Shown here one piece after another: positions 7,831 through 32,669 of a DNA stretch of 36,780 nucleotides. The notes beneath the pieces are model-generated. The model made no database searches. It had not been told where the DNA came from and saw only the letters and a program-made list of their open reading frames with translations. Source of the DNA: a virus; IMG/VR virus record IMGVR_UViG_3300044825_001963, positions 1-36,780 of that record. The stretch is one strand, 5' to 3'. Every line of letters starts with the position of its first letter. Within the stretch, counting starts at the first letter, position 1. Position numbers and translations under genes: made by a program.

Positions 7831-10800
7831 ATGGCTAACAAACTGATCTACCTGAGAGGCTACGGCTACATGGAGGTGCCTGCCGAACTCACGGGGCAAG
7901 AGCTTTCCAAGTACGCAACAGAGCAAGCCAGGAAGTCTATGGCTACGTCTGTGGTCCAGGCTCCGCGAGAAGAAGAGAAGAAACCTGAGCCCTCCACTAT
8001 GCAGCAGGCTGCTGGCTTTGCTGCTGGTCTCCCTGCTGGCCTTGCCTCTGGGCTGATTGGGTCTACCCTTGAAGGCATTGGTGGCCTGACTGGCATCCGC
8101 CCAGTAGAAGAAGCTGGCGCTTCCTTTAACGAGTGGGTCCAGGAGAGACTGAAGCAGGCAGTTGGCGAAGAAGCTGCTGCTTCTGGCGCGTCTCAGGTGG
8201 GTCAGACTATCGGCGGCATCGCTTCGTTCTTTACCCCTGGAGTTGCTGCCAAGGTGCTTGGTGGCGCTGGGAAGCTGGTTAAAGCCGCCCCGTACTTGAG
8301 CACTGCGATGTCTGGCATCCAAGGCGCTGGCGAACAGGTCGAGCGGATGCGGCAGCAGGAGGCTCAGGGTGAGCAGATCGATCCCTTGATGCGCCAGTTG
8401 TATGCTGCTGGCGCGGGTGCCGGGACTGCGTTACTGGAAAACATACCCATCAGCGGACTCGCCAAATATACTCCGCTGAGGCGTGTGCTGGGTGATATCC
8501 CTGTCTCCGCTGAGGCTGGTGCATTTACGAGGGCGATGGATGCGGGTGCCGGGACTATCCTTGGACGGGCGCTTGGGACTGGCGCTGGCGAAGCTGCCAC
8601 TGAAGTAAGCCAGAACGCATTGCAGAACATCATCGAGCGCCAGTACAACGAACAGCGCGGCATACTTGAAGGTAGCACTGAGTCTGCCGTGGGTGGCTTC
8701 TTGGCTGGCGCGGCGCTTCAGGGTGGCGCTGATCTGTACCGCGATGTCTACCTGAACAGGAAGAAATTCGAGGGAGATGTTAAGGCGCTTCGAGGGCAGC
8801 TTTCCGAAGAGCAACTCCCACTCCTTCCGGCTGGCAAGAGAAAAGCGGTTCAGATTCGCGGAAAAGATATCTCCACAGTATTGGGAGAGGAGGATATCGC
8901 AGAGGCAGAAGCTGCTTTCTCTAGGGTCGCTTCTCCGCAAGGAGTTCCGCTCCTTCCTCCTGGCAAGTTTGCTTCTGATGAAGAGGCTCGGAGAAAGATT
9001 GATGAAGAGATCGAGGCCGCAAAGGTATATGGCCCGACTCCAGACTTATCCTACGCTACACCTGAAGCAATGGCGCGTATCGAGGAGCTCAGGGCTAAAG
9101 AGCAAGCGGACAACGAAGCGATAATCAAGCAGCGTGAACAGGACATCGCTGCGCTGCCGGATTTCCCATCCTACCTTCCTGATCCAAACGTAACGCCGAT
9201 CAGCGAGTGGCCGAAGCCTCAAGTCAAGCTGTTTGACCAGTACCTGAGCAAGTTCTCTCCAGAGCAGACCAAGCTGATCGAGAGCTTCAGCCCTGAAGAG
9301 ATGGATTCGTTTATCGAGAGAGGCATAAAGCGCAAGACCGAATCCGAACAGCAACTGCAAAAGATCCGAGAAGAGCAGGCGGCTCGTATTGCTGCTTCCC
9401 GTAGGGCGGATATCGAGCAGGCTGATGCGATCACTCTCTCGCGGTTCGCAGAGGACTATCAAAAACAGGAAGCCGAAGCGGCTAGGGTAAAGCGGGAAGA
9501 GGAGCTATCTAAGGCCGCTGCCGGGAGGGCTGAAGAGGCTGCGATCAAAAACCTGTATGCGCGTGAGGAGTTCGACAAGTTCGTTGCTGACCGAATCGCA
9601 GCAAAGAGCAAGATCGAAGAGAGCCAGAGGGTTGCCGCTGAACTGGCGCAAACGAAGTTCGGTAAACCACTGAGTGAGTTGAAAGATTCCCAGAAGATCC
9701 AACTCGCCAGCGAGATCGACGCAATCTCAAAGGAGGCTTCGTTCAGGACTGAAGTCAACAAAGAGATTCCAGAGCTTGGCGACCCCATCTACAAGCTGCA
9801 AAACCGGGTAGCCGTAAACTTCTTCGGCACTCAATACAAGAACCTCCCAGAAGCTAAGCAGGGGATGGTGAACTCTGCTATTGAACGAGGAGAAGGGAGA
9901 ACCGTACTTGGCGAAGAGCTGCTGGAAGAGAAAGATTTTGACAAGTACAAGCGGCTCTATAATCGTGACGACTTCCGCGCCGTAAATAAAGAGGTGCGGT
10001 CTTTCGCCCGAGATGAGAGTGGGTTTATCCCGGTCACAAAAGACTCCCTATACTCTGCTGTTAAGTCTGTATCTGAAGATCCTACTAGCACTATCAAGCC
10101 AAATAGAATGGCCTCAAATGCCATGTTCAAGCACATGCTTGATCGTGGTGTTATTGTGGACATTGACGGCAAGACCTACCTCAATGAGGAAGTGACTGGC
10201 CCCCGCTACCAGCTTCCTGTAAGCAATAACCCAAACATCGATAGCCAGCAGAAAGCTTTCAACGCCGAGGAGGCAAGGGTCACGGTTGCTCCAAAGATGA
10301 GGGATGCTCTTGAGCGGCGTGGACTATCCGATGTGTTCACGTTGGGAATCGTCGGCAAAATCGACGAGACCCCTGCCCTTGGCAACTACCTGAATCGCGT
10401 TATCCAGATCGCCGCAGCTCCCGAAGGCAAGGTCCGCTCTATCGACGAGATGGTCTCCTCGATGGATCACGAGATCGTCCACGGCATGCGTGCCGCTGGT
10501 CTGTTCACGGACGCCGAGTGGAACCTGCTGACCACTGATTTCAACGCCAACCTGCTGGACGACAAGCAGAAGGAAGAGTACACGCGGATCTACAAAGCCC
10601 AGGGGATGAGCGACCAAGCCATCCAAGAAGCCTTGAACGAGGAAGCTGTCGCTATGAAAGCGGCGCAACTCAACAATGTAGACCCCAAGCGACTGGATCC
10701 GAAGTCTCTGTCGCTGATCAATAAGGTTCGCTTCTACCTGGAGTTCGGGCGCAACTCTGCTGCCCTTGGATACAACAGCGCCGAAGACGTGCTGGCTGCA

Positions 10801-13800
10801 ATCAAGTCTGGCGAGATTGGCAAGCGTGGGTTTACTTCTGAGTTTGAGAAGGTAGGCGGAAAGGCTACGCGGGTTGGACGCCAGGAGATCTCTATCGCCT
10901 CTGAGGCTGACAGGCCTTCCGGGGTTGAGACCAAGGTCTACGGAGAAGAAGACGAGGAAGGAGTAACGGACGAGAAGTACAAGCAAGCTCTGTCTGGGCT
11001 GGCTTCCAAGTTCGACCGCAAGACCCCCGTGAAATCTCCTCGTCAGTACCTGATCCAGGAGATGGATGTCGCGCCGGAAGATGTCGATGCGATGGTCAAG
11101 GGCATGATCAAGAACAAAGATCTTGTCAAAGTTGGCGGCGCTCTCTATATCTCTGACAGGGCTCGGAAGGGGATGTCGACCGAAGCCCCCGCTGCCCCGA
11201 AGGCGACTCCTGAGCCAGCGAAGCCTGTCCCTGCTGGGAAGTTAGAGATCGCTCCCTCTGGTGCTGAGAGGGCCAAGCAAGACGTTCTCTTCAATCCGCA
11301 AGGACCTAGCGTTACCAAGCCATTCTTCACCAAGAAGTCTGCGAAGAACCCGCTGGAAGAAGCAAGCGACCTGATCAAGGGCAACTTCTCCTCCTTCCGA
11401 CAGAAGCTGGTTGATCGCTACGATCCTGTTCGGTTGATGGCGATTGAAGCGTACTCCAAGACTGGCGACAAGAAGTACCTCAGCGCCGCTGAAGGTTCAT
11501 ACCATGCACTCCTGTTCTCTGATAAGGCACAGGATATGGCCCTTGCTGGCCTAGAGGACGGAGGCTTCACGACTGAAGGAAGCATTATCCTCGCTGCTGA
11601 TAACGAGAAGATCGCTCCGCTGAAGATCTTCCAGTCACTGAGAGAGAAGGGCAAGCTCGATGCCTTCTTCAATTTTGCATACGCCAAGCGGTACAAGGCC
11701 TTGAAGGGGAACGGGAAAGACCCTGGCGGGGTGATCAGTGAAGCCGATGTCGAAAGGGAATACAAGCGGTGGGAGAATGACGACGACATTAACACCGCCA
11801 TCGACAACTTCAAAGCATACAATGACAACCTCGTAGATATCCTTCGCAAGAGTGGCTTCATCTCCGCAGGTGAGGCCAAGGCGTGGAAGTCTGCCTTCTA
11901 CATTCCCTTCTACCGCATCCCGACTGTCATGGAAGGAGATGTGGATACGGGCGAGGTGGATATCCCGCGCCTCAGTTCGCAGATCACAAACCTCTCCAAC
12001 CCCAAGGGCCTTACGGGGCGCGACCTTCCTGTCAATGACGCGATTGAGAACATCATCGCCAACACCTACTACGTTATCGGCACTGCTGCCAAGAACTTTG
12101 CGGCGCGTAAGGTGGCAAGAGATGGAGTAGTCACTGGCTATATGAGAGAGATCGAGAAGTCTGGGGACGCGCAACAGGGGTACAAGGTAATCACCGTTAG
12201 AGAGGGTGGCGCCAAGAAGCATTACGAAGTAAAGGATGCTCTACTGCATGACGCTGTAGCTAATTCTGGCTTCCCTGTTCAGGACGTTCTTCGGGGTATG
12301 GGCTGGTTCACAGAGAAGCTGCGGCGCGGCACCACCCTGTCGCCCACCTACATCGTTCGCAACACTCTGCGTGACTCCATTCAGTCCTGGATTCTTGGTC
12401 AATACGGAAGTACGTTCCTGCCTCCATTCAAAGAGATCACCAAGGGGATCCAGATGGCGTACAAGAACTCTCCCGAGTTCAAGGCATTGAAGGCTGCTGG
12501 TATTGCTAGCTCTGGATTGCGGAAGAAGACCTTGCAAGAGACGGCTAGAGAGATGCGCCGGAAGATCGGTGAAGAGCAGCAGGGAGTGCTTGCCAAGCTG
12601 GGCGAGATCTTTAATAAGGGCATTGAGGTTCTTGAAAGGGGGGCTGAAATTTCTGAAGCCAGCACAAGAACCAAGGTTTATCAGGATGTCTTGGCAAAGA
12701 CTGGAGATCGAAAAGAAGCTCTGTTTGCCGCTATGGAGACCATAAATTTCTCCAGAAAGGGTAGCTCTCGTGGTTTGCAGATTGGCATGGCCCTGCTGCC
12801 GTTCTTCAATTCAAGAATCCAGGGCTTGGATGTCTTCTACCGCACGATGAAGGGCGAGAAGATGATGCCCAATCAGATGTCGGCTGACATGAAGAACGCA
12901 GCGGTCACTCGGTTCATGTACTTCTCTGCGCTCTCCGCCCTCTACGCACTGTACATGTCCAACCATCCCGCCTGGGAGAATGCCACCGACGAAGAGAAAG
13001 ATGGAAACATCTTCCTTCCAGTGGACTTTATTCCCGGGATCAAGAAGGGGACAGTCCTCAAGTTCCCCATCCCGCAGGAGCTTGGCTTGGTCAGCAAGAT
13101 GCCTGCCGAGCGCATCGTTACCATGATCAAGGGGCGCTCTGACGGTGGAGAGTTGATCGACGCCCTCCAGAGAGCGGTGTTCGATACTCTCTCGTTCAAC
13201 CCCATTCCTCAGGTATTCCTTCCGGGTATCGAGGCGATTGCCAATTTCGACTTCTACTCCCAGAGGCCGATTGAGAATCAATATCTCGCCAGCTTATTGC
13301 CGGAAGAGCGATACACCGAGTACACAACTGGGGTTGCTAAGGCGATTGGGAGGGCCACGGAGGAGACTGCTGTAGCTGTATCTCCTGTGATGGTGGATCA
13401 TTTGATCAGGGGCTACTTCGGCACTATCGGTGCCTACTCTGCCGATATCCTTGGCAGACTGATCGAAGAAGGAAGCGATGCTCCCGCGCCGGAACGGATG
13501 CGCTTCTCTGAGCCGTACCTTCTCCCCGTCATTGGCCCCCTCTTCAAATCCGCCGAAGGGAAGAAGATGGTCGAGGATTTGTACATGATCGACGAGGCTG
13601 CGAAGATGGCAGCATCCACCCTTAAAGCGTACTCGGAGAACGGGCGCGAACTATCTGAAGCCAAGGAAGACGAGCTCTATCAGCTTGCAGAGATTGGCGA
13701 GGAAGTGCGTCCGGTTATCGACCAGATCCGAGAGCTCAATCGACAGAAGCGTGCCATCCAGACTGACACGGAGATGTCTTCCGGTGAGAAGAGAGACGAG

Positions 13801-13887
13801 CTCAATGAGATCCAGAAAGAGATCGTCTCCCTTGCCGCCGAAGTGAACGATCTTAAGAAGCAGGTGCCGATTCGCTTGAGGAAGTAG
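7831..13887 (+). CDS. Giant polyvalent ejection protein with zincin (HExxH) domain
   Basis: 2018 residues, ATG with AAGGA 9 nt upstream. The N-terminus is LRGYGYMEVPAELTGQE, followed by Gly/Ala-rich hydrophobic stretches (about 50-85, 125-145, 185-205) that could insert in membranes. Long charged helices fill about 300-700. HEIVH lies at 880-884, with a plausible third metal ligand in NEEAVAM at 936-942, as in gluzincin-type metallopeptidases. Around 1500-1515 a SPTYIVRNTLRDS element resembles the large polyvalent-protein-associated modules of injected phage proteins. The C-terminus is charged and coiled-coil-like. Size, position as last late gene and mixed domains fit a multi-domain protein ejected into the host, comparable in place to T7 gp16. 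The protease activity is a motif-based prediction. The 3' end overlaps the convergent gene by 35 bp. Confidence 0.8.
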   Translation: MANKLIYLRGYGYMEVPAELTGQELSKYATEQARKSMATSVVQAPREEEKKPEPSTMQQAAGFAAGLPAGLASGLIGSTLEGIGGLTGIRPVEEAGASFNEWVQERLKQAVGEEAAASGASQVGQTIGGIASFFTPGVAAKVLGGAGKLVKAAPYLSTAMSGIQGAGEQVERMRQQEAQGEQIDPLMRQLYAAGAGAGTALLENIPISGLAKYTPLRRVLGDIPVSAEAGAFTRAMDAGAGTILGRALGTGAGEAATEVSQNALQNIIERQYNEQRGILEGSTESAVGGFLAGAALQGGADLYRDVYLNRKKFEGDVKALRGQLSEEQLPLLPAGKRKAVQIRGKDISTVLGEEDIAEAEAAFSRVASPQGVPLLPPGKFASDEEARRKIDEEIEAAKVYGPTPDLSYATPEAMARIEELRAKEQADNEAIIKQREQDIAALPDFPSYLPDPNVTPISEWPKPQVKLFDQYLSKFSPEQTKLIESFSPEEMDSFIERGIKRKTESEQQLQKIREEQAARIAASRRADIEQADAITLSRFAEDYQKQEAEAARVKREEELSKAAAGRAEEAAIKNLYAREEFDKFVADRIAAKSKIEESQRVAAELAQTKFGKPLSELKDSQKIQLASEIDAISKEASFRTEVNKEIPELGDPIYKLQNRVAVNFFGTQYKNLPEAKQGMVNSAIERGEGRTVLGEELLEEKDFDKYKRLYNRDDFRAVNKEVRSFARDESGFIPVTKDSLYSAVKSVSEDPTSTIKPNRMASNAMFKHMLDRGVIVDIDGKTYLNEEVTGPRYQLPVSNNPNIDSQQKAFNAEEARVTVAPKMRDALERRGLSDVFTLGIVGKIDETPALGNYLNRVIQIAAAPEGKVRSIDEMVSSMDHEIVHGMRAAGLFTDAEWNLLTTDFNANLLDDKQKEEYTRIYKAQGMSDQAIQEALNEEAVAMKAAQLNNVDPKRLDPKSLSLINKVRFYLEFGRNSAALGYNSAEDVLAAIKSGEIGKRGFTSEFEKVGGKATRVGRQEISIASEADRPSGVETKVYGEEDEEGVTDEKYKQALSGLASKFDRKTPVKSPRQYLIQEMDVAPEDVDAMVKGMIKNKDLVKVGGALYISDRARKGMSTEAPAAPKATPEPAKPVPAGKLEIAPSGAERAKQDVLFNPQGPSVTKPFFTKKSAKNPLEEASDLIKGNFSSFRQKLVDRYDPVRLMAIEAYSKTGDKKYLSAAEGSYHALLFSDKAQDMALAGLEDGGFTTEGSIILAADNEKIAPLKIFQSLREKGKLDAFFNFAYAKRYKALKGNGKDPGGVISEADVEREYKRWENDDDINTAIDNFKAYNDNLVDILRKSGFISAGEAKAWKSAFYIPFYRIPTVMEGDVDTGEVDIPRLSSQITNLSNPKGLTGRDLPVNDAIENIIANTYYVIGTAAKNFAARKVARDGVVTGYMREIEKSGDAQQGYKVITVREGGAKKHYEVKDALLHDAVANSGFPVQDVLRGMGWFTEKLRRGTTLSPTYIVRNTLRDSIQSWILGQYGSTFLPPFKEITKGIQMAYKNSPEFKALKAAGIASSGLRKKTLQETAREMRRKIGEEQQGVLAKLGEIFNKGIEVLERGAEISEASTRTKVYQDVLAKTGDRKEALFAAMETINFSRKGSSRGLQIGMALLPFFNSRIQGLDVFYRTMKGEKMMPNQMSADMKNAAVTRFMYFSALSALYALYMSNHPAWENATDEEKDGNIFLPVDFIPGIKKGTVLKFPIPQELGLVSKMPAERIVTMIKGRSDGGELIDALQRAVFDTLSFNPIPQVFLPGIEAIANFDFYSQRPIENQYLASLLPEERYTEYTTGVAKAIGRATEETAVAVSPVMVDHLIRGYFGTIGAYSADILGRLIEEGSDAPAPERMRFSEPYLLPVIGPLFKSAEGKKMVEDLYMIDEAAKMAASTLKAYSENGRELSEAKEDELYQLAEIGEEVRPVIDQIRELNRQKRAIQTDTEMSSGEKRDELNEIQKEIVSLAAEVNDLKKQVPIRLRK

Positions 13888-16790: not shown

Positions 16791-17598
16791 TCACTGTCTC
16801 CTTTGTGAATTCAGGTGTGAACTTGGCGTACACCTTCTCGGTTATAACGCTACTGGAATGACCCAGCAACTTGCTGACTCTCAGTATCGGCACGCCAGAG
16901 CTAACAAGGTTCGTTGCCACGCTGTGCCGGATGATGTGCGGCGTGATTGTAGTTGGCAGGCCAGCGGCGACCATCAGCTTGCGCCACTGATAGTTCAATG
17001 ACATCGGCCTCCTGCCGTTCTGGGCGACGACCAACTTGTCTCCGTCGAGAACTCGGTGCGCCATCATGTATTCGTACAAGTCGTCGTTCATCGCCACATC
17101 AGCCACGCACTTCTGCCGAGACTTCCTGTTGGCGCTGAAGTAGATGCAACGACCATCCAGGTCTACGTCCTTCCAGCGGAGAGAGATGACCGCACCGGAT
17201 CTCTGCCCAGTATTGCAGAGCAGCATGCAGTACATCTCCATCCACTGTCCAAACTTGTGAGCTTCATTCAGCACCAAGCCCATCTGATCCCATGTGATCC
17301 ACTGCTTTCTCGGCGCGGATTCCTTAGGTAGTTCGATGTACGGCTTGTTCGTGATCTGACCGCACTTCCATGCAGTGTTGATAGCGGCGATCAATGCCTG
17401 AAGATCTCTACGGATCGTTGAGGACGACAACTTCGCCAACCCCTTGGTGGCCTCTCGAATAACGGAAGGCCGGAGGTTGTCTACGAGGATGCCGTCGAGT
17501 GCTTTCAGGTGCCGATGCGCTAGCTCCTGTCTTTTCCAGAAGAGAATGTCGTCGCTACATTCTCTCCTGTACAACTCCCAAACATCTCCCACTAGCAT
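16747..17598 (-). CDS. Tyrosine recombinase / phage integrase
   Basis: 283 residues from ATG 17598, AGGAG 7 nt upstream. N-terminal core-binding SAM-like domain about 1-90, catalytic domain about 100-275. Catalytic set visible: R133 (TGQRSGAVISLRW), K159 (NRKSRQK), H221 and R224 (HIIRHS), H247 (LGHSS), Y257 nucleophile (EKVYAKF). This makes it a site-specific recombinase able to integrate or resolve DNA. The short N-terminus lacks an obvious arm-binding domain, which is seen in some phage integrases and in XerC/D-like resolvases. It lies inside the replication operon rather than at a genome edge, so a role in dimer or concatemer resolution is an alternative to lysogeny. No attachment site could be identified. 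Confidence 0.93.
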   Translation of the reverse strand: MLVGDVWELYRRECSDDILFWKRQELAHRHLKALDGILVDNLRPSVIREATKGLAKLSSSTIRRDLQALIAAINTAWKCGQITNKPYIELPKESAPRKQWITWDQMGLVLNEAHKFGQWMEMYCMLLCNTGQRSGAVISLRWKDVDLDGRCIYFSANRKSRQKCVADVAMNDDLYEYMMAHRVLDGDKLVVAQNGRRPMSLNYQWRKLMVAAGLPTTITPHIIRHSVATNLVSSGVPILRVSKLLGHSSSVITEKVYAKFTPEFTKETVNAIRINGNSDRPRA

Positions 17599-18437
17599 TG
17601 CACAACTCCTGGAACTTCGATCTTGTGTGCGTGTCCAAGGATTGCAATCGGATACGGCTGCGGGGGTTCGACTCCGAACTCATGCTTGTACGCTACAGCG
17701 TGCCAGTGAGACAGGAACATCTTCACGGCGTACCGCTCGGCGCGTTGCTCGATGTGAGCAGGAGGCAGCATGCCGATACTGTATGCCTTGTAGGCATCGG
17801 TATCCTTGCCAATCTTGAACTTCTCCAACTTGGCGATGGCTTGATCGATGAACGCGCCAGCCTCGTTGCGCTCCATCTCCAGGCGCTTGCGCTCTGAGTA
17901 GATGTGACCATAGAAGCACTTGTCGCTCTTGTGGAACTTCATAAAGCTCTGCCCGATCTTCCAGCACAGAACCTTGAGCTTGGCGTTGAATGGGCGCCTC
18001 TCGCCCTTTTTCCACTCCATGCGCGGGTCCAGCCCGGCGAAGGACCAGATATGACCTACGGTCGGAGCCTTGCGGATATCGATGTGCGCCAGTAAACCGG
18101 CGCTAATGACAGGGCCAATCCCATGCTGCGACTTCGCCCACACGCTAACCGGGCTGACATCGGTCCACCAATCCAGCGCGCGCTTGATTTGACCTTCCAT
18201 GGTTTCATGCTGAGTGAACAACCACTTCAGCACCTCACATGGCTCATCGACCCCTCCCTTACTCACGCTGCGGACTTGGCTAGCCGCTGCGATCCGGTAG
18301 TCCTGGATGGTGTAGTATGCGTCCACCAGGAACCGGGCTTCGTCCCGAGACATGGACCTGACCCCTTTCTTGATGTCGCTCGTCAGCCGATTGACGGCTT
18401 CCATGGATACGATTGAAGGAACTTCTTGCTGAATCAT
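17592..18437 (-). CDS. Orphan IS110/IS116-type transposase C-terminal (Transposase_20-like) domain protein
   Basis: 281 residues. ATG at 18437 is chosen over ATG 18443 because AGGAG is 7 nt from it but only 1 nt from the earlier one. Around residues 107-165 it has the helix-hairpin-helix-like signature of IS110-family C-terminal domains: GIGPVISAGLLAHI, then WSFAGLDPRMEWKKG. The N-terminal DEDD RuvC-like half of true IS110 transposases is absent, and the G-x-S type serine region expected after GLDP reads EWKKGERRPFN, so the recombination serine seems missing. The flanks carry no insertion-sequence ends. Probably a phage DNA-binding protein working with the neighbouring recombinase or RuvC-like nuclease; this is inference. 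Confidence 0.75.
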   Translation of the reverse strand: MIQQEVPSIVSMEAVNRLTSDIKKGVRSMSRDEARFLVDAYYTIQDYRIAAASQVRSVSKGGVDEPCEVLKWLFTQHETMEGQIKRALDWWTDVSPVSVWAKSQHGIGPVISAGLLAHIDIRKAPTVGHIWSFAGLDPRMEWKKGERRPFNAKLKVLCWKIGQSFMKFHKSDKCFYGHIYSERKRLEMERNEAGAFIDQAIAKLEKFKIGKDTDAYKAYSIGMLPPAHIEQRAERYAVKMFLSHWHAVAYKHEFGVEPPQPYPIAILGHAHKIEVPGVVQC

Positions 18438-18526
18438 TTGCATTCTCCTGTGTTGGCTTTCGCTTTCTTCGTTGGTGTATTCACTGCTTGTGGCTCACTC
18501 GTTTTTCGTGTGTTGTCTTCGTTCAT
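18434..18526 (-). CDS. Possible 30-residue basic leader peptide gene
   Basis: ATG at 18526 opens a 30-codon frame rich in Lys/Thr/Glu (starts MNEDNTRKTSE, ends NTGECK). Its TGA overlaps the ATG at 18437 of the next gene in the classic ATGA arrangement, which is the main support. The ribosome site is weak (GAGAG). It may be a small coupled peptide or simply a leader. Confidence 0.3.
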   Translation of the reverse strand: MNEDNTRKTSEPQAVNTPTKKAKANTGECK

Positions 18527-18579
18527 GGATCTCTCGGAAGCAGTGTGATTTCAGTACCAGTGGATCGTTCACGGTTGTT

Positions 18580-18608
18580 GTAATATCGGACGGGATGACT
18601 CACTCTAA
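18580..18608 (-). promoter_or_regulatory. Candidate sigma70-like promoter, leftward
   Basis: On the reverse strand TTAGAG and TATTAC are separated by 17 bp (-35 at 18603-18608, -10 at 18580-18585) in the 150-base gap upstream of the IS110-domain gene. Matches to consensus are 3/6 and 4/6, so the call is weak. Position before a multi-gene leftward block supports it. Confidence 0.3.
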
Positions 18609-18678
18609 TAGCATGGGGATTCGCCGTTGATGGTTCGCTCAGGCAGGATGTGATTTCTGTTGCTTTGGCTGAAGCGGG

Positions 18679-20672: not shown

Positions 20673-20753
20673 GACTAAGCATACACATTAACACAAAACC
20701 ACACAAGCACAAAAGTGTGTTCGATTGTGCCCATCCTGGTGTACCATTTGGAA
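20673..20753. promoter_or_regulatory. Divergent control region with candidate operators and leaderless promoter
   Basis: 81 bases between the RHH gene and the primase-helicase ATG. Leftward: TTGTGT (reverse of 20701-20706) and TATGCT (reverse of 20678-20683), 17 bp apart, put transcription start at or next to the RHH ATG. The spacer has repeated ACACA/CACAA words and an inverted pair CACAC...GTGTG (about 20701-20721), as expected for tandem RHH operators. No equally good rightward promoter was found. Confidence 0.5.
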
Positions 20754-22502
20754 ATGCGACCAACACCGGAACTGCGGGAGCTAGCAGAGCAGTTCGTGGA
20801 GAGTGGGCGTGGATCATTGAGAACCACATGCCCAGAGTGCAGTCCAAACAGAAGGCACCACAACGCACACGAACCTGTATTGTCATGGAGCCAGGGAGAC
20901 AGGGGTCCAGTCTTCTATTGTCACCACTGCGGGATTAAAGGAGCCGTTAATAACATGAATCTCGAAGACTTTGATTCTTTATTCAACAACCAACCAAGTC
21001 AACTAGAGTTGTCCCTGCCTGAGCCCGGGGAGGGCGGCATCCGGTTGCAACTAGACCACATCGACTACCTGAAGCGGCGCGGCATCTCAATCGAGACAGC
21101 CACGAAGGCGGAACTGTTTTCTGTGCGGAAGTTCTTCCGACAAGGGGGCGACCTGGACTGTATCGCGTTCCCCTACTTCGATACTGATGGCGTGCTCGTG
21201 TCTTCCAAGTACCGTGCAACTACGGTAAAGACCTTCTCGCAGGATGCCGGGGCTGGGGGCCTGCTGTTTGGATTGAAGCAGGAGTTCGATCCGCGAGAGC
21301 CGCTCGTCATCTGTGAGGGGGAGATGGACGCCGTCTCTGTGTGTGAGGCGGGGATCAAGAACTGGGTGAGTGTTCCCTCCGGCGCTCCCGGCAAGGGGGA
21401 GAAGAACAACTCCCAAAGATTTAGTTGGATCTCCGAATTGGAGGAGTTCCTGGGGAAGTTTAAGTCCTTCGTGCTGGCTACCGACAACGATGGACCCGGC
21501 AAAGCCTTGCAGGAAGAGCTCGGGCGCAGGTTGGGTCGGTCCAAGTGCAGCACTGTTAAGTACCCAGATGGCTGCAAGGATGCGAACGATGTTCTTGTAA
21601 AGCATGGAATCTCCGTGTTGGCGAATGTGATTTACGGTGCGAAGCCAATGCCTATGACATCTCTCTATAGCGCCGATCACTACTTCGATCAGGTCATGGA
21701 CCTGTTCACTAAAGGCGACGGCAAGGGCGAGAGCACTGGCTTTTCTGGCGTGGACGAATTGTACACCGTTGCGCGAGGGCAGATGACGGTGGTGACTGGT
21801 ATTCCTTCAAGCGGGAAGAGCAACTTCCTGGACCAGATCATGGTGAATCTGGCGCGGAATCAGGGCTGGAGGTTTGCGATAGCCAGCATGGAGAACGAAC
21901 CTGCCAAGCATATCGCCAAGCTGTCTGAGATGTACGTACGCAAACCCTTCTTCCAGCAGTGGCCTGGGTGCATGACCCTGGACGAAGCCAGAGGAGCGCA
22001 TGCTTGGTGCCAGGATCACTTCAACTTCATCGACTTCAGCACGTCGAAGGATCTGCCCACGCTGGACAGCTTGCTGGATAGAGCGAACGCTGCCGTCCTT
22101 AGATTCGGTATCGACGGATTGGTTATTGATCCGTACAACTGTATCGAGATCGGCAGAAGCAAAGAGTTGAACGAGACGGAAGCTGTCAGCAATATGCTGT
22201 CGCGCATCTCTGCCTTCGCGAAGGCGTCGAACATTCACGTCTGGTTCGTCGCGCACCCGCAGAAGATGCAGCGGGAGTTCTCGTCGAGCAACACCGTCCC
22301 GGGTGGGTATGACATCTCAGGATCGGCGCATTGGTTCAACAAGACTGACGTAGGCCTGACCGTACACCGCAAGGATATGGACGGGTACGTCGAGGTTCAC
22401 TGCTGGAAGTGCAGGTTCAAGTGGGTAGGGCGGCAGGGGATGACGCGCCTGAAGTACGACATCCCCACCAGCACCTACTACGAACTACCGAAGGAGACCT
22501 AA
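20754..22502 (+). CDS. Bifunctional DNA primase-helicase (T7 gp4-like)
   Basis: 582 residues from ATG 20754. Alternative GTG starts extend up to 13 codons, but none has a better ribosome site. It makes RNA primers and unwinds DNA at the fork. Domains: zinc-binding C26-x2-C29...C56-x2-C59 (TCPEC, FYCHHCG); TOPRIM with EGEMDAVSV (about 187) and ATDNDGPG; RecA/DnaB-type helicase with Walker A GIPSSGKSN (about 349-357), Walker B DGLVIDPYN, and FVAHPQKM with later SGSAHWFNKTD motifs. The length fits the T7-like fusion. It lies alone rightward between two leftward blocks, and its stop overlaps the convergent gene by 4 bp. Confidence 0.95.
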   Translation: MRPTPELRELAEQFVESGRGSLRTTCPECSPNRRHHNAHEPVLSWSQGDRGPVFYCHHCGIKGAVNNMNLEDFDSLFNNQPSQLELSLPEPGEGGIRLQLDHIDYLKRRGISIETATKAELFSVRKFFRQGGDLDCIAFPYFDTDGVLVSSKYRATTVKTFSQDAGAGGLLFGLKQEFDPREPLVICEGEMDAVSVCEAGIKNWVSVPSGAPGKGEKNNSQRFSWISELEEFLGKFKSFVLATDNDGPGKALQEELGRRLGRSKCSTVKYPDGCKDANDVLVKHGISVLANVIYGAKPMPMTSLYSADHYFDQVMDLFTKGDGKGESTGFSGVDELYTVARGQMTVVTGIPSSGKSNFLDQIMVNLARNQGWRFAIASMENEPAKHIAKLSEMYVRKPFFQQWPGCMTLDEARGAHAWCQDHFNFIDFSTSKDLPTLDSLLDRANAAVLRFGIDGLVIDPYNCIEIGRSKELNETEAVSNMLSRISAFAKASNIHVWFVAHPQKMQREFSSSNTVPGGYDISGSAHWFNKTDVGLTVHRKDMDGYVEVHCWKCRFKWVGRQGMTRLKYDIPTSTYYELPKET

Positions 22503-26857: not shown

Positions 26858-27208
26858 CTACTTCTTGTTTGGTTTCTTGTCGGGGAACTGCGCCTTCTCG
26901 ATTACTTCGTTGATCAGCGCGTCCCTGTCGTATGGCTGTATGCCATCGTTCAACGGCGAGTAGTGCCAGCACTTGTAGCTGGGCGCTTGCGCCATGAAGA
27001 AGGCCTTGTCGGTGTTGTGGTAGTGACCCGCGATGTCCTTGCGGGCCAGGATGTCGGACTCCACCTCGTTAAGGGAGATGAAGCACTCCTCCTCGACCAG
27101 CTTCTCGCCGTCCTTCTCGACCTGCCCTGCGGCGGCGGACAGGTTGGTGAATCCGTTGGCAAGCGCGACCGCATAGATCGCGCCGATAAATTGTTCAGGT
27201 GTAAGCAT
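26858..27208 (-). CDS. Small acidic protein, unknown function
   Basis: 116 residues from ATG 27208 (AAGGAG 5 nt before), not the longer frame. N-terminus LTPEQFIGAIYAVALANGF is helical; the middle has EVESDILARKDIAGHYHNTDKAFFMA; the tail is basic (FPDKKPNKK). It resembles small phage proteins of unknown role that carry a hydrophobic first helix. Its ATG overlaps the TAG stop of the neighbouring Cys-rich gene by one base. Confidence 0.7.
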   Translation of the reverse strand: MLTPEQFIGAIYAVALANGFTNLSAAAGQVEKDGEKLVEEECFISLNEVESDILARKDIAGHYHNTDKAFFMAQAPSYKCWHYSPLNDGIQPYDRDALINEVIEKAQFPDKKPNKK

Positions 27209-27408
27209 TAGCTCTCCTTGTCGTTCGGTAGCGGACACCATTCCGGGAAGGGTCCGAAGTCTTCGTCGGGGCGCTGTATCAAGCGCGGTTCACTGGGACA
27301 GTAGGCGCATTCGGACAGCATGCCCAGTCCATTGGGGGCGCGGATGTGTGTCTCCCGATTGTACGGACAGCGCACACACGCGCCGATCACTATCTCTACT
27401 CTCTTCAT
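27208..27408 (-). CDS. Small Cys-rich, probably zinc-binding protein
   Basis: 66 residues from ATG 27408 with GAGGTG just upstream. Cysteines in CVRC and CAYC with a further Cys near the end (EWCPLP) suggest a zinc knuckle. Fits the small host-takeover-type proteins of this block. No family recognised. Confidence 0.7.
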   Translation of the reverse strand: MKRVEIVIGACVRCPYNRETHIRAPNGLGMLSECAYCPSEPRLIQRPDEDFGPFPEWCPLPNDKES

Positions 27409-27538: not shown

Positions 27539-27991
27539 TTACACCCGCTCCCATGCGAAGTTGTTCTCCCGATTCATCACAACGCGCTGTTTGCCGTTGT
27601 TGTGTTCGATCACCCGGGCTTTGCCCATGTTGAAGTTGGCGTCGAACATGGCGTCAGCGATGCGGCACCATTTGCCCTGCTGTTCCTGCCACGCGCCGTC
27701 GATGAAGTACTGCAATTCGTAGCTCATGCTGTTCTCCTCGTGCGATGCTGGAATGATCTTCATATCCCGCTCATAAGCCACGGACTCCATGAGCTGCTCT
27801 TTAGAGTTCCATTCGATAATCGAGTAGTCCTCCCCACAGCACTCGCAGGTCACATGGTTGGGGTCGCGCCCCGTCTCGTTTCTGAATACGGTGACGGCGC
27901 TGAACTCGGACTCCGCTTCAATCAGGTACATATCGTGCTTAGACTTCTGAGTCCCGCCGCTGTGCATATCTCGAAAGCTATACCAATTCAT
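27539..27991 (-). CDS. Conserved-type phage protein with CxCC zinc motif
   Basis: 150 residues from ATG 27991, AGGAGA 6 nt upstream. N-terminus WYSFRDMHSGGTQKSKHDMY then YLIEAESEFSAVTVFRNETG and CECCGEDYSI match a common phage hypothetical family as remembered (mostly seen in Gram-negative phages). The C-terminal half, from MSYELQYFIDGAW, looks like a second small domain and has its own Met, so an internal start is possible. Function unknown. Confidence 0.75.
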   Translation of the reverse strand: MNWYSFRDMHSGGTQKSKHDMYLIEAESEFSAVTVFRNETGRDPNHVTCECCGEDYSIIEWNSKEQLMESVAYERDMKIIPASHEENSMSYELQYFIDGAWQEQQGKWCRIADAMFDANFNMGKARVIEHNNGKQRVVMNRENNFAWERV

Positions 27992-28019
27992 CGCTATTCT
28001 CCTGGTTGGTTGGTTTGTT

Positions 28020-28041
28020 GGTGCGCTATCTCTAGCGCACC
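28020..28041 (-). promoter_or_regulatory. Perfect 9-bp intercistronic hairpin
   Basis: GGTGCGCTA (28020-28028) pairs with TAGCGCACC (28033-28041) around TCTC. A T-run follows only on the rightward strand (28042-28045), where no gene ends, so on the transcribed leftward strand it is a leader/processing hairpin. It overlaps the end of the upstream gene and lies 29 nt before the next ATG. Confidence 0.65.
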
Positions 28042-28223
28042 TTTTCTACGATTGGCGAGTGGCAAGCGGTGGGAAGCTGGCGCTCCCTGAGCTTGCAAAA
28101 TACCTTGTCCGCTTCGGCTTCGGCGGACTCGATTGTCCGGTGCAGCCTGCGATAGCGGGGGAACTTGTACCGGGGGAAGCCACGGTTGGCATCACCCTCA
28201 CCTGCGAAACAGAGTTCGTACAT
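28032..28223 (-). CDS. Small basic protein, unknown function
   Basis: 63 residues from ATG 28223 with GGAGG 4 nt upstream, the ATG overlapping the Csx16-like stop (TAATG). Arg/Lys/Glu-rich with an RGFPRYKFPRYRRLHRTIES region, then a helical tail. It could bind nucleic acid. The start is firm because the ribosome site is excellent. Confidence 0.7.
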   Translation of the reverse strand: MYELCFAGEGDANRGFPRYKFPRYRRLHRTIESAEAEADKVFCKLRERQLPTACHSPIVEKVR

Positions 28224-28504
28224 TATGCCTCCCTCACGATGTACTTCGTTAGCCGCGCGCCAGCGGCCTTCATATCCTCGATGCCGTACTCCTGGCCGCG
28301 AGGGGGCGCACCCTCAAACTCGATCGAGAACACCGCTTCGGCCACGGCGGCGAGGTGCAGCGGGATATTACCCGCCACGAACTTGCCCATGACGTCAAGG
28401 GCAGTCGCGTTCCCGGTGATGACCGGGGCGTCAGCAAACTTGGGGTGGCTGGCGCGGATGAACTCGACGGCGGCAGGGTGCCGCGAAATGATGATGTATT
28501 TCAT
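28223..28504 (-). CDS. Csx16-family (Cas_VVA1548-like) protein, putative cyclic-oligoadenylate ring nuclease / anti-CRISPR
   Basis: 93 residues from ATG 28504 (AGGAG 8 nt before), not the longer frame. Visible motifs line up with the Csx16 family as remembered: SRHPAAVEFIRAS (family T/SRHxGAxEW), GKFVAGNIPLHLAAVAE (family GDVVIGTLPxxLAAxV), FSIEFEGAPPRGQE (family xHLSLDxPxxxRGxE), IEDMKAAGARLTKYIV (family xxDMxxxGAxLxxY). Csx16 normally sits in type III CRISPR loci and has been reported as an active ring nuclease degrading cyclic oligoadenylates. In a phage it would blunt type III signalling, as AcrIII-1 does. No cas gene is nearby. Activity and family membership remain to be confirmed. Confidence 0.78.
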   Translation of the reverse strand: MKYIIISRHPAAVEFIRASHPKFADAPVITGNATALDVMGKFVAGNIPLHLAAVAEAVFSIEFEGAPPRGQEYGIEDMKAAGARLTKYIVREA

Positions 28505-28535
28505 TGTTGTATCTCCTGGCTGATTGTTGATTGTT

Positions 28536-28558
28536 AGGGTAGGCGCATAGCATACCCT
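28536..28558 (-). promoter_or_regulatory. Leader hairpin upstream of the Csx16-like gene
   Basis: AGGGTA (28536-28541) pairs with TACCCT (28553-28558) around an 11-nt loop. It lies 32 nt before the ATG, followed by an unstructured A/C-rich stretch and AGGAGA. The same AGGGTA stem recurs at 30201-30223. Confidence 0.5.
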
Positions 28559-28589
28559 GTTACACGGTCGATGCTGAAGTCTGCTGAAG

Positions 28590-28847
28590 CTAACAGCCAC
28601 AGCAAGGGTAGTCTTCGCAGCGGCACGCTACCCGGGCGATCATGCGCCCATCCGCAGCGTAGAGACCGCGAGGGTCTCGCAAGGAGTTGTAGTACCCGGC
28701 AGGTTTGCGGCGGGGGCGGTACGCGCCGTTGGTTTTGCACCCCAGGCAGAAGAGCCTGGAGTTGATGTAGTTGGCCTGTGTTCCGGCCTGTATGAGCGCC
28801 CCGCAGGTGCGGCAGGGGGCCGTGTATTTGACGGTGATGATCGCCAT
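28590..28847 (-). CDS. Small zinc-finger-like protein
   Basis: 85 residues from ATG 28847 with AAGGGGGG upstream, overlapping the previous stop by one base (TAATG). CRTCGALI and FCLGCKT form a C-x2-C...C-x2-C zinc ribbon/treble-clef-like module in residues 10-40, as in many phage small proteins; a second Cys cluster (ACRCEDYPCCGC) closes the protein. Probably binds metal and nucleic acid or protein; specific role unknown. Confidence 0.75.
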   Translation of the reverse strand: MAIITVKYTAPCRTCGALIQAGTQANYINSRLFCLGCKTNGAYRPRRKPAGYYNSLRDPRGLYAADGRMIARVACRCEDYPCCGC

Positions 28848-31806: not shown

Positions 31807-31938
31807 ACAGCCATCCCATCCACCACCCTACTCGATGTCTGTCACACCCCCCACCCCTTTATTCCTGCGCCACATTCTTCTCTCCACCTCTCCAATAGGA
31901 AACACCCCCACCTTCTATTTTGGTACCATCTCTACATG

Positions 31939-31992
31939 GCGTAGCCTTCGCTACGCATAGACACCACAACTTCTTTATGCTACGGTGTCTAT
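31939..31992 (+). repeat. Array repeat copy 1 (hairpin plus inverted ATAGACACC arms)
   Basis: GCGTAGC-CTTC-GCTACGC (31939-31956), immediately followed by ATAGACACC (31957-31965), an 18-nt spacer, then GGTGTCTAT (31984-31992), its exact inverse complement. The right arm ends 8 nt before the first paralogue gene's ATG. Confidence 0.8.
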
Positions 31993-32258: not shown

Positions 32259-32264
32259 AGGCCA

Positions 32265-32330
32265 GTAGACACATAGCGTAGCCTTCGCTACGCATAGACA
32301 CCATCCAATCCACCGTGCTATGGTGTATAT
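32265..32330 (+). repeat. Array repeat copy 2
   Basis: GTAGACAC leads into GCGTAGC-CTTC-GCTACGC (32276-32293), ATAGACACC (32294-32302), a 19-nt spacer, and GGTGTATAT (32322-32330; one mismatch to the inverse arm). It ends 11 nt before the second paralogue's ATG, which has GGGGG as its ribosome site. Confidence 0.8.
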
Positions 32331-32341
32331 AGGGGGAATCA

Positions 32342-32635
32342 ATGGAGACCGATTTAAGCAGCATCGATAGCGAATGGGGCAACATCGTCTCAACATCTTT
32401 ATACTCTGCGCCGATCAAGCACAGCGGGAGTGAGCATCTATCGATAGGGATCATTGAAGGCGCTGGCGCAGAAATATGGACATTTGATTGGGAGAGGCCA
32501 GTTCCCTACGCGCACATGGAGAACCTCATCCGGCGCGTGTACCCTCACGAGTCAAAGCGAACTCAATATCAAATGGACAAGATGCTTAAAAGGATCGACG
32601 AAAATAGGCGACGAACTTCAGGCCTAGCCCAGTAG
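32342..32635 (+). CDS. Array paralogue 2
   Basis: 97 residues from ATG 32342, GGGGG 5 nt upstream. Mid-protein beta region LSIGIIEGAGAEIWTFDWE aligns with the G-x-[V/I]-x-x-x-G pattern of the array; the C-terminal helix is MENLIRRVYPHESKRTQYQM then DKMLKRI. Unknown function. Followed by array repeat copy 3. Confidence 0.65.
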   Translation: METDLSSIDSEWGNIVSTSLYSAPIKHSGSEHLSIGIIEGAGAEIWTFDWERPVPYAHMENLIRRVYPHESKRTQYQMDKMLKRIDENRRRTSGLAQ

Positions 32636-32669
32636 ACACCCAGCGTAGCTTCCGCTACGCATAGACACC
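32633..32669 (+). repeat. Array repeat copy 3 (lacks the right arm)
   Basis: GTAGACACcc then GCGTAGC-TTCC-GCTACGC (32643-32660) and ATAGACACC (32661-32669). The GGTGTCTAT arm is missing; instead a C-rich, G-poor spacer (about 32670-32790) with another TAGACACCC follows. Confidence 0.75.

Follow-up and report, generated by a model that had tools for sequence, protein, structure and literature searches.

A virus-encoded member of the Csx16 family, a putative ring nuclease directed at type III CRISPR signalling

The DNA that we analysed, referred to here as the window, is a 36,780-base viral contig (IMG/VR record IMGVR_UViG_3300044825_001963) taken at its full length. The record carries genes for a virion structural protein, an integrase, an Erf recombinase, an HNH endonuclease, a terminase small subunit, a thymidylate synthase and a primase-helicase, and its nearest named phages, as judged by the structural protein and the helicase, are only 33–37% identical. 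On the minus strand, running from 28504 to 28223, is a gene for a 93-residue protein of the Pfam family PF09652 (csx16), which its company of terminase small subunit, virion protein, Erf, integrase and primase-helicase genes marks as virus-encoded. A sequence-only reading of this DNA had placed a Csx16-like gene at 28223–28504 and left its strand unstated; the coordinates hold, and the plus strand of this interval has an in-frame stop. The csx16 ATG is preceded by an AGGAG ribosome-binding site, and the GC content by codon position (63/44/81%) fits coding DNA, so the open reading frame is a genuine gene. Its stop codon overlaps the ATG of a 63-residue ORF on the same strand (28032–28223), which has no Pfam match and is probably co-translated with csx16. 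A search of the 36,780-base record for RAMP and Cas1 genes yielded neither, consistent with the earlier remark that no cas genes lie nearby, and a search for ring nucleases of the PF08960 (DUF1874/STIV_B116-like) type was negative for the window and for the kin phages tested.

We note several other features of the window. Its longest ORF (7831–13887, plus strand) encodes 2018 residues, and a gene for a Toprim and DnaB-type primase-helicase (20715–22499) lies on the plus strand within a minus-strand gene block. An IS110-type transposase ORF (17592–18443, minus strand; phrog_4285, PF02371) is associated with a block of about 1.08 kb (17599–18678) that is missing from the kin phage G003, in which the flanks meet almost directly; the block is probably a recent insertion into the phage genome. 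A 44-nucleotide repeat containing a GCGTAGC...GCTACGC hairpin occurs three times (31922–31965, 32259–32302 and 32626–32669) at a spacing of about 350 bases, and as the first two copies stand directly upstream of small plus-strand ORFs, the repeats are possible leaders or regulatory sites. Finally, the block holding a gene for a Gene product 88 family protein (PF17338; 30229–30909) contains in kin phages ORFs of similar size and different sequence, and this gene may occupy another variable position.

The assignment of the window protein to the Csx16 family is supported by Pfam, PADLOC, a profile–profile comparison and a phylogenetic tree. The PF09652 (Cas_VVA1548/Csx16) profile scores 36 bits, above its curated cut-off of 25 bits (E=8.1e-9), and aligns residues 5–90 of the protein with positions 2–90 of its 91, which bears out the whole-length match claimed by the sequence-only reading, and the four motifs quoted there are all present in the translation. 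The second profile proposed there as a check, the stricter NCBI Csx16 model TIGR02620, gave a different answer, with a weak score of 16.3 bits that lies under the curated cut-off of 46.35, and the window protein is therefore best described as a divergent member. The PADLOC Csx16 models match it at 1e-8 and 4e-8, all 52 sequences of an alignment that comprises the window protein, viral members and one cas-linked member match PF09652, and comparison of the viral subclade with cas-operon Csx16 by profiles gives a probability of 97.9% (E=3e-13). A PHROG search with the window protein gave no match, and weak sequence matches in the PDB to designed ankyrin repeats were taken as chance ones arising from the PLHLAA stretch.

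When IMG/VR and the genome collection were scanned with the window protein alone, no relatives were returned, whereas searches of IMG/VR with narrower alignments succeeded and yielded, once identical sequences were removed, 50 further viral Csx16 proteins. RAMP genes were found in none of 48 other viral Csx16 records that were each searched whole, and both positive controls were positive. Around the nearest viral relatives lie genes for terminase, Erf, RecT, exonucleases, HNH proteins, integrase and endolysin; the cas-operon relatives adjoin cas10/RAMP, cmr, csm6 and cas6 genes. Csx16 is also found on plasmids of Deinococcus, Allomeiothermus and an uncultured archaeon, where the surrounding 16 to 30 features shown include no annotated cas gene, in plasmid gene tables that are incomplete. 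On the Allomeiothermus silvanus plasmid pMESIL02 the Csx16 domains are N-terminal parts of longer proteins of 671 and 261 residues (L004, 7998–10013, and L104, 4992–5777), with no cas gene annotated nearby, and one viral Csx16 (L133, 5989–6393) has a cysteine-rich C-terminal tail (CPSC...CGICGG) resembling a zinc-binding module. From 396 Actinomycetota genomes, a thin sampling of cellular genomes, our search recovered only the Csx16 of Ferrithrix that was already in our set. Among the phage genomes of INPHARED, the window protein matched only those of the Methanobacterium viruses Drs3 and PhiF3. The matched proteins, at about 31% identity and an E-value near 0.8, both carry a Csx16-family annotation, and the two viruses are probably the phage genomes in which Csx16 was reported previously (PMC12409355).

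In a tree of 62 sequences, the window protein falls inside a 12-sequence clade that is entirely viral and that is strongly supported as a unit (99/99). A second group holds most of the other viral members together with three plasmid ones, and the five cas-linked sequences, with archaeal virus and plasmid sequences, lie on the other side of the tree (99/95). The family appears to divide between cas operons on one side and, on the other, a large group on mobile elements, a division that is provisional given a short alignment, only five cas-linked sequences and searches aimed at viruses. The window protein is 51–59% identical to seven members of its clade, with the motifs conserved. The other carriers of the clade do not have the structural protein of the window phage, which points to transfer of csx16 between unrelated phages, although several of these records are fragments and absence from any single carrier is no proof. 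Six pairs of family members were compared; dN was well under dS in five, and synonymous sites approached saturation in three. L143 and L144, the sole pair from clade A, have too few differences to judge.

The conserved residues, whose loss the sequence-only reading would have counted against its proposal, give a divided answer. In the 52-sequence alignment R8, H9, V43, G45 and P48 do not vary and V28, L51, R69, G70 and E72 hardly vary, and the window protein keeps every one of these, along with the motifs common to Csx16 proteins (R-H, VxGx(L/I)P and RGxE). Its clade, too, retains the residues that are near-invariant in the family. At position 32, within the HLD/HAT motif, it has N32, and the histidine has been lost from nearly the whole 12-member clade. 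H32 is present in 48 of the 50 other members (40/42 in clade B, 5/5 cas-linked and 3/3 archaeal), its near-universality being a feature found in this analysis and no published criterion for Csx16. Because H32 is lost in the clade, ring-nuclease activity cannot be assumed, and catalysis may be altered or absent. S7, N46, H50 and F63 are fixed in the same 12 sequences.

Loss of the near-universal histidine would suit a protein that acts as a sponge, binding cyclic oligoadenylate and holding it uncut so that host effectors stay off. There is a precedent in Csx15, a related small CRISPR protein that binds cA4 well, cleaves it very slowly and, when over-expressed, still neutralises a cA4 effector (PMC13148439). 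The authors of that study argue, however, that the messenger output of type III systems is so large that sponging may be fruitless, and they report that Csx15 is not seen in phages (PMC13148439); moreover, R8, H9, R69 and E72 are retained in the window protein, and we consider a sponge unlikely. The fixed S7, N46, H50 and F63, taken with the loss of H32, might instead signify that the changed residues aim the clade at another defence signal, such as cA3 or another cyclic nucleotide of CBASS, and the occurrence of the clade in phages without the structural protein of the window phage would fit such a change. The Csx16 that has been assayed is nevertheless strictly specific for cA4 (PMC12409355), and a shift of specificity seems to us improbable as well.

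The gene occupies a variable slot (27740–28585) without counterpart in three kin contigs, L094, G003 and G004. The slot is bordered by minus-strand genes common to the kin phages, namely one for an 85-residue CxxC protein upstream (28590–28847) and one for a 66-residue protein downstream (27208–27408). L094 is 94.6% identical to the window over 8.6 kb, and G003 is 77–93% identical over most shared stretches. Despite the common flanking genes, csx16 is absent from all three, and other small genes lie between the flanks; in G003, homology continues through the leader as far as the start codon, after which there is a different gene of 103 residues. The presence of other genes in the same slot of close kin indicates that csx16 behaves as swappable cargo. 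None of the replacement genes that were scanned has a Pfam match, so the slot is not thereby shown to be an anti-defence slot. The 5′ leader of csx16 (28505–28590, minus strand) contains the ribosome-binding site and a weak hairpin. The sequence-only reading had given the gene its own hairpin leader, a claim that fails, as the hairpin is no more stable than that of shuffled sequence (z=0.35) and the homologous leader of G003 stands before another gene; we therefore rejected it as a special element.

That csx16 is dispensable, as its absence from the kin phages tested indicates, and that the genes replacing it have no known function would suit a gene with no part in counter-defence, either reused for another phage role or carried as decaying cargo that is nearing loss, and the missing H32 would suit it too. 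Set against this are the open frame, the good ribosome-binding site and the coding-like codon composition, as well as the level of identity to seven clade members with conservation of the motifs. Reuse or decay strikes us as having little likelihood.

The predicted structure of the window protein bears on its proposed activity. Contact with cyclic oligoadenylate in CARF domains lies between the first strand and the first helix. The AlphaFold2 model (mean pLDDT 94.4, pTM 0.84) places S7-R8-H9 between the first strand (residues 3–6) and the first helix (residues 10–19), and this motif is the presumed contact site for cyclic oligoadenylate. In the comparison with Csx16 that the sequence-only reading had proposed, a control model of a cas-linked Csx16 has a nearly identical order of strands and helices, with the difference that the helix following the GxxP motif is shorter in the window model (residues 49–52 versus 51–60). 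Among the top structural matches listed for the window model are the CARF domains of Cad1 and Can1, the ring nuclease Sso2081 and AcrIII-2, at Z scores of 3.6 to 4.4, the best of which (4.4, to the Cad1 CARF domain) is tied with unrelated Rossmann-type folds; Foldseek found no match at E<0.001 in the PDB or BFVD. Scores for the cas-linked control were similarly weak, with a match to 2J6B at Z 4.9, and the published Csx16 model likewise scored a Z of only 4.8; the significant structural match reported for Csx16 is this same 2J6B, a viral Crn2 homologue (PMC12409355). That 2J6B is not among the matches listed for the window model is uninformative either way. The fold as modelled appears to be CARF-like, of a five-stranded Rossmann type, which is consistent with a ring nuclease and no proof of one.

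Taken together, these analyses lead us to favour, with somewhat better than even confidence, the reading that the window protein is a putative phage ring nuclease for cyclic oligoadenylate, probably cA4, that damps type III CRISPR signalling in the host. As a CARF-like dimer, phage Csx16 would bind the messenger, most likely cA4, that Cas10 of a presumed host type III system produces, and would cut it to short linear products; the cA4-activated effectors of the host would then stay unswitched and infection could proceed. This reading draws on the following observations: the protein belongs to the family, its gene lies in a viral record in which neither RAMP nor Cas1 genes were found, the near-invariant residues are kept, the gene behaves as an accessory in a slot, and a virus-borne subclade exists in unrelated phages. 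A role against type III systems is plausible, and is strengthened by the 50 viral relatives, the lack of RAMP genes in the tested records and the accessory-slot behaviour; indeed, near relatives in many unrelated viruses suggest viral silencing of the type III alarm signal. Counted against it are the loss of H32, the TIGR02620 score, a CARF Z score of only 4.4, the need to presume a type III system in the host and the dispute over the native role of AcrIII-1 as an anti-CRISPR (Martinez-Alvarez 2025, as cited in PMC12751052). In the AcrIII-2 study, too, it is pointed out that a positive ring-nuclease assay is no guarantee of a native anti-CRISPR role (PMC12751052).

Csx16 has been found in 68 type III loci and, as reported in 2025, in 2 of 28,114 phage genomes (PMC12409355), the latter a count that had made its use by viruses look marginal. 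Viral Csx16 therefore had two precedents; new here is a virus-borne subclade with residue changes of its own, and our searches suggest that Csx16 is considerably more frequent in uncultivated viruses than the earlier count implied. A broader and rather doubtful possibility is that the 12-member clade is a separate anti-defence lineage, present in unrelated phages, whose enzymes degrade cyclic nucleotides. Its active site would have been rebuilt through the loss of H32 and the fixation of N46 and H50, its specificity might differ from that of cas-operon Csx16, and Csx16-family genes would count among the anti-type III genes that are common in uncultivated viruses. The viral set provides natural variants for asking which residues determine ring-nuclease activity and specificity, and bears on whether phages acquired this host off-switch more than once.

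Several known systems resemble the window protein in part. Crn4b is a ring nuclease likewise present in type III loci, phages and plasmids (PMC12830947), but has an unrelated fold and broad specificity for cyclic oligoadenylates. AcrIII-2, a cA4 ring nuclease encoded by viruses, has a relative in a host CRISPR sensor and weakly matches our model (9r8s, Z 3.6), but it is a SAVED domain of about 230 residues outside the Csx16 family. AcrIII-1 (DUF1874, Crn2 family), for which an anti-CRISPR role has been proposed, is a small ring nuclease of viruses that acts on cA4. It belongs to a different sequence family (PF08960), as the sequence-only reading stated; the further statement that its fold family is different was too strong, since the structural match published for Csx16, 2J6B, belongs to the AcrIII-1 family (PMC12409355). 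Drs3 and PhiF3 carry Csx16-family proteins in viral genomes, as the window does, although these are only about 31% identical, lie on the cas-linked side of the tree (99/95), keep H32 and come from viruses of archaeal hosts. Finally, the Csx16 of type III CRISPR loci, which that reading described as cleaving cyclic oligoadenylates and which is published as degrading cA4, but not cA3 or cA6, to linear products (Hoikkala and colleagues, PMC12409355), differs in its setting, as the window record is without RAMP or Cas1 genes, and in the loss of H32 from the clade, the sub-threshold TIGR02620 score and the shorter helix after GxxP of the window protein; it resembles the window protein in its PF09652 match over the full length, its motifs, its similar size and a nearly identical predicted order of structural elements.
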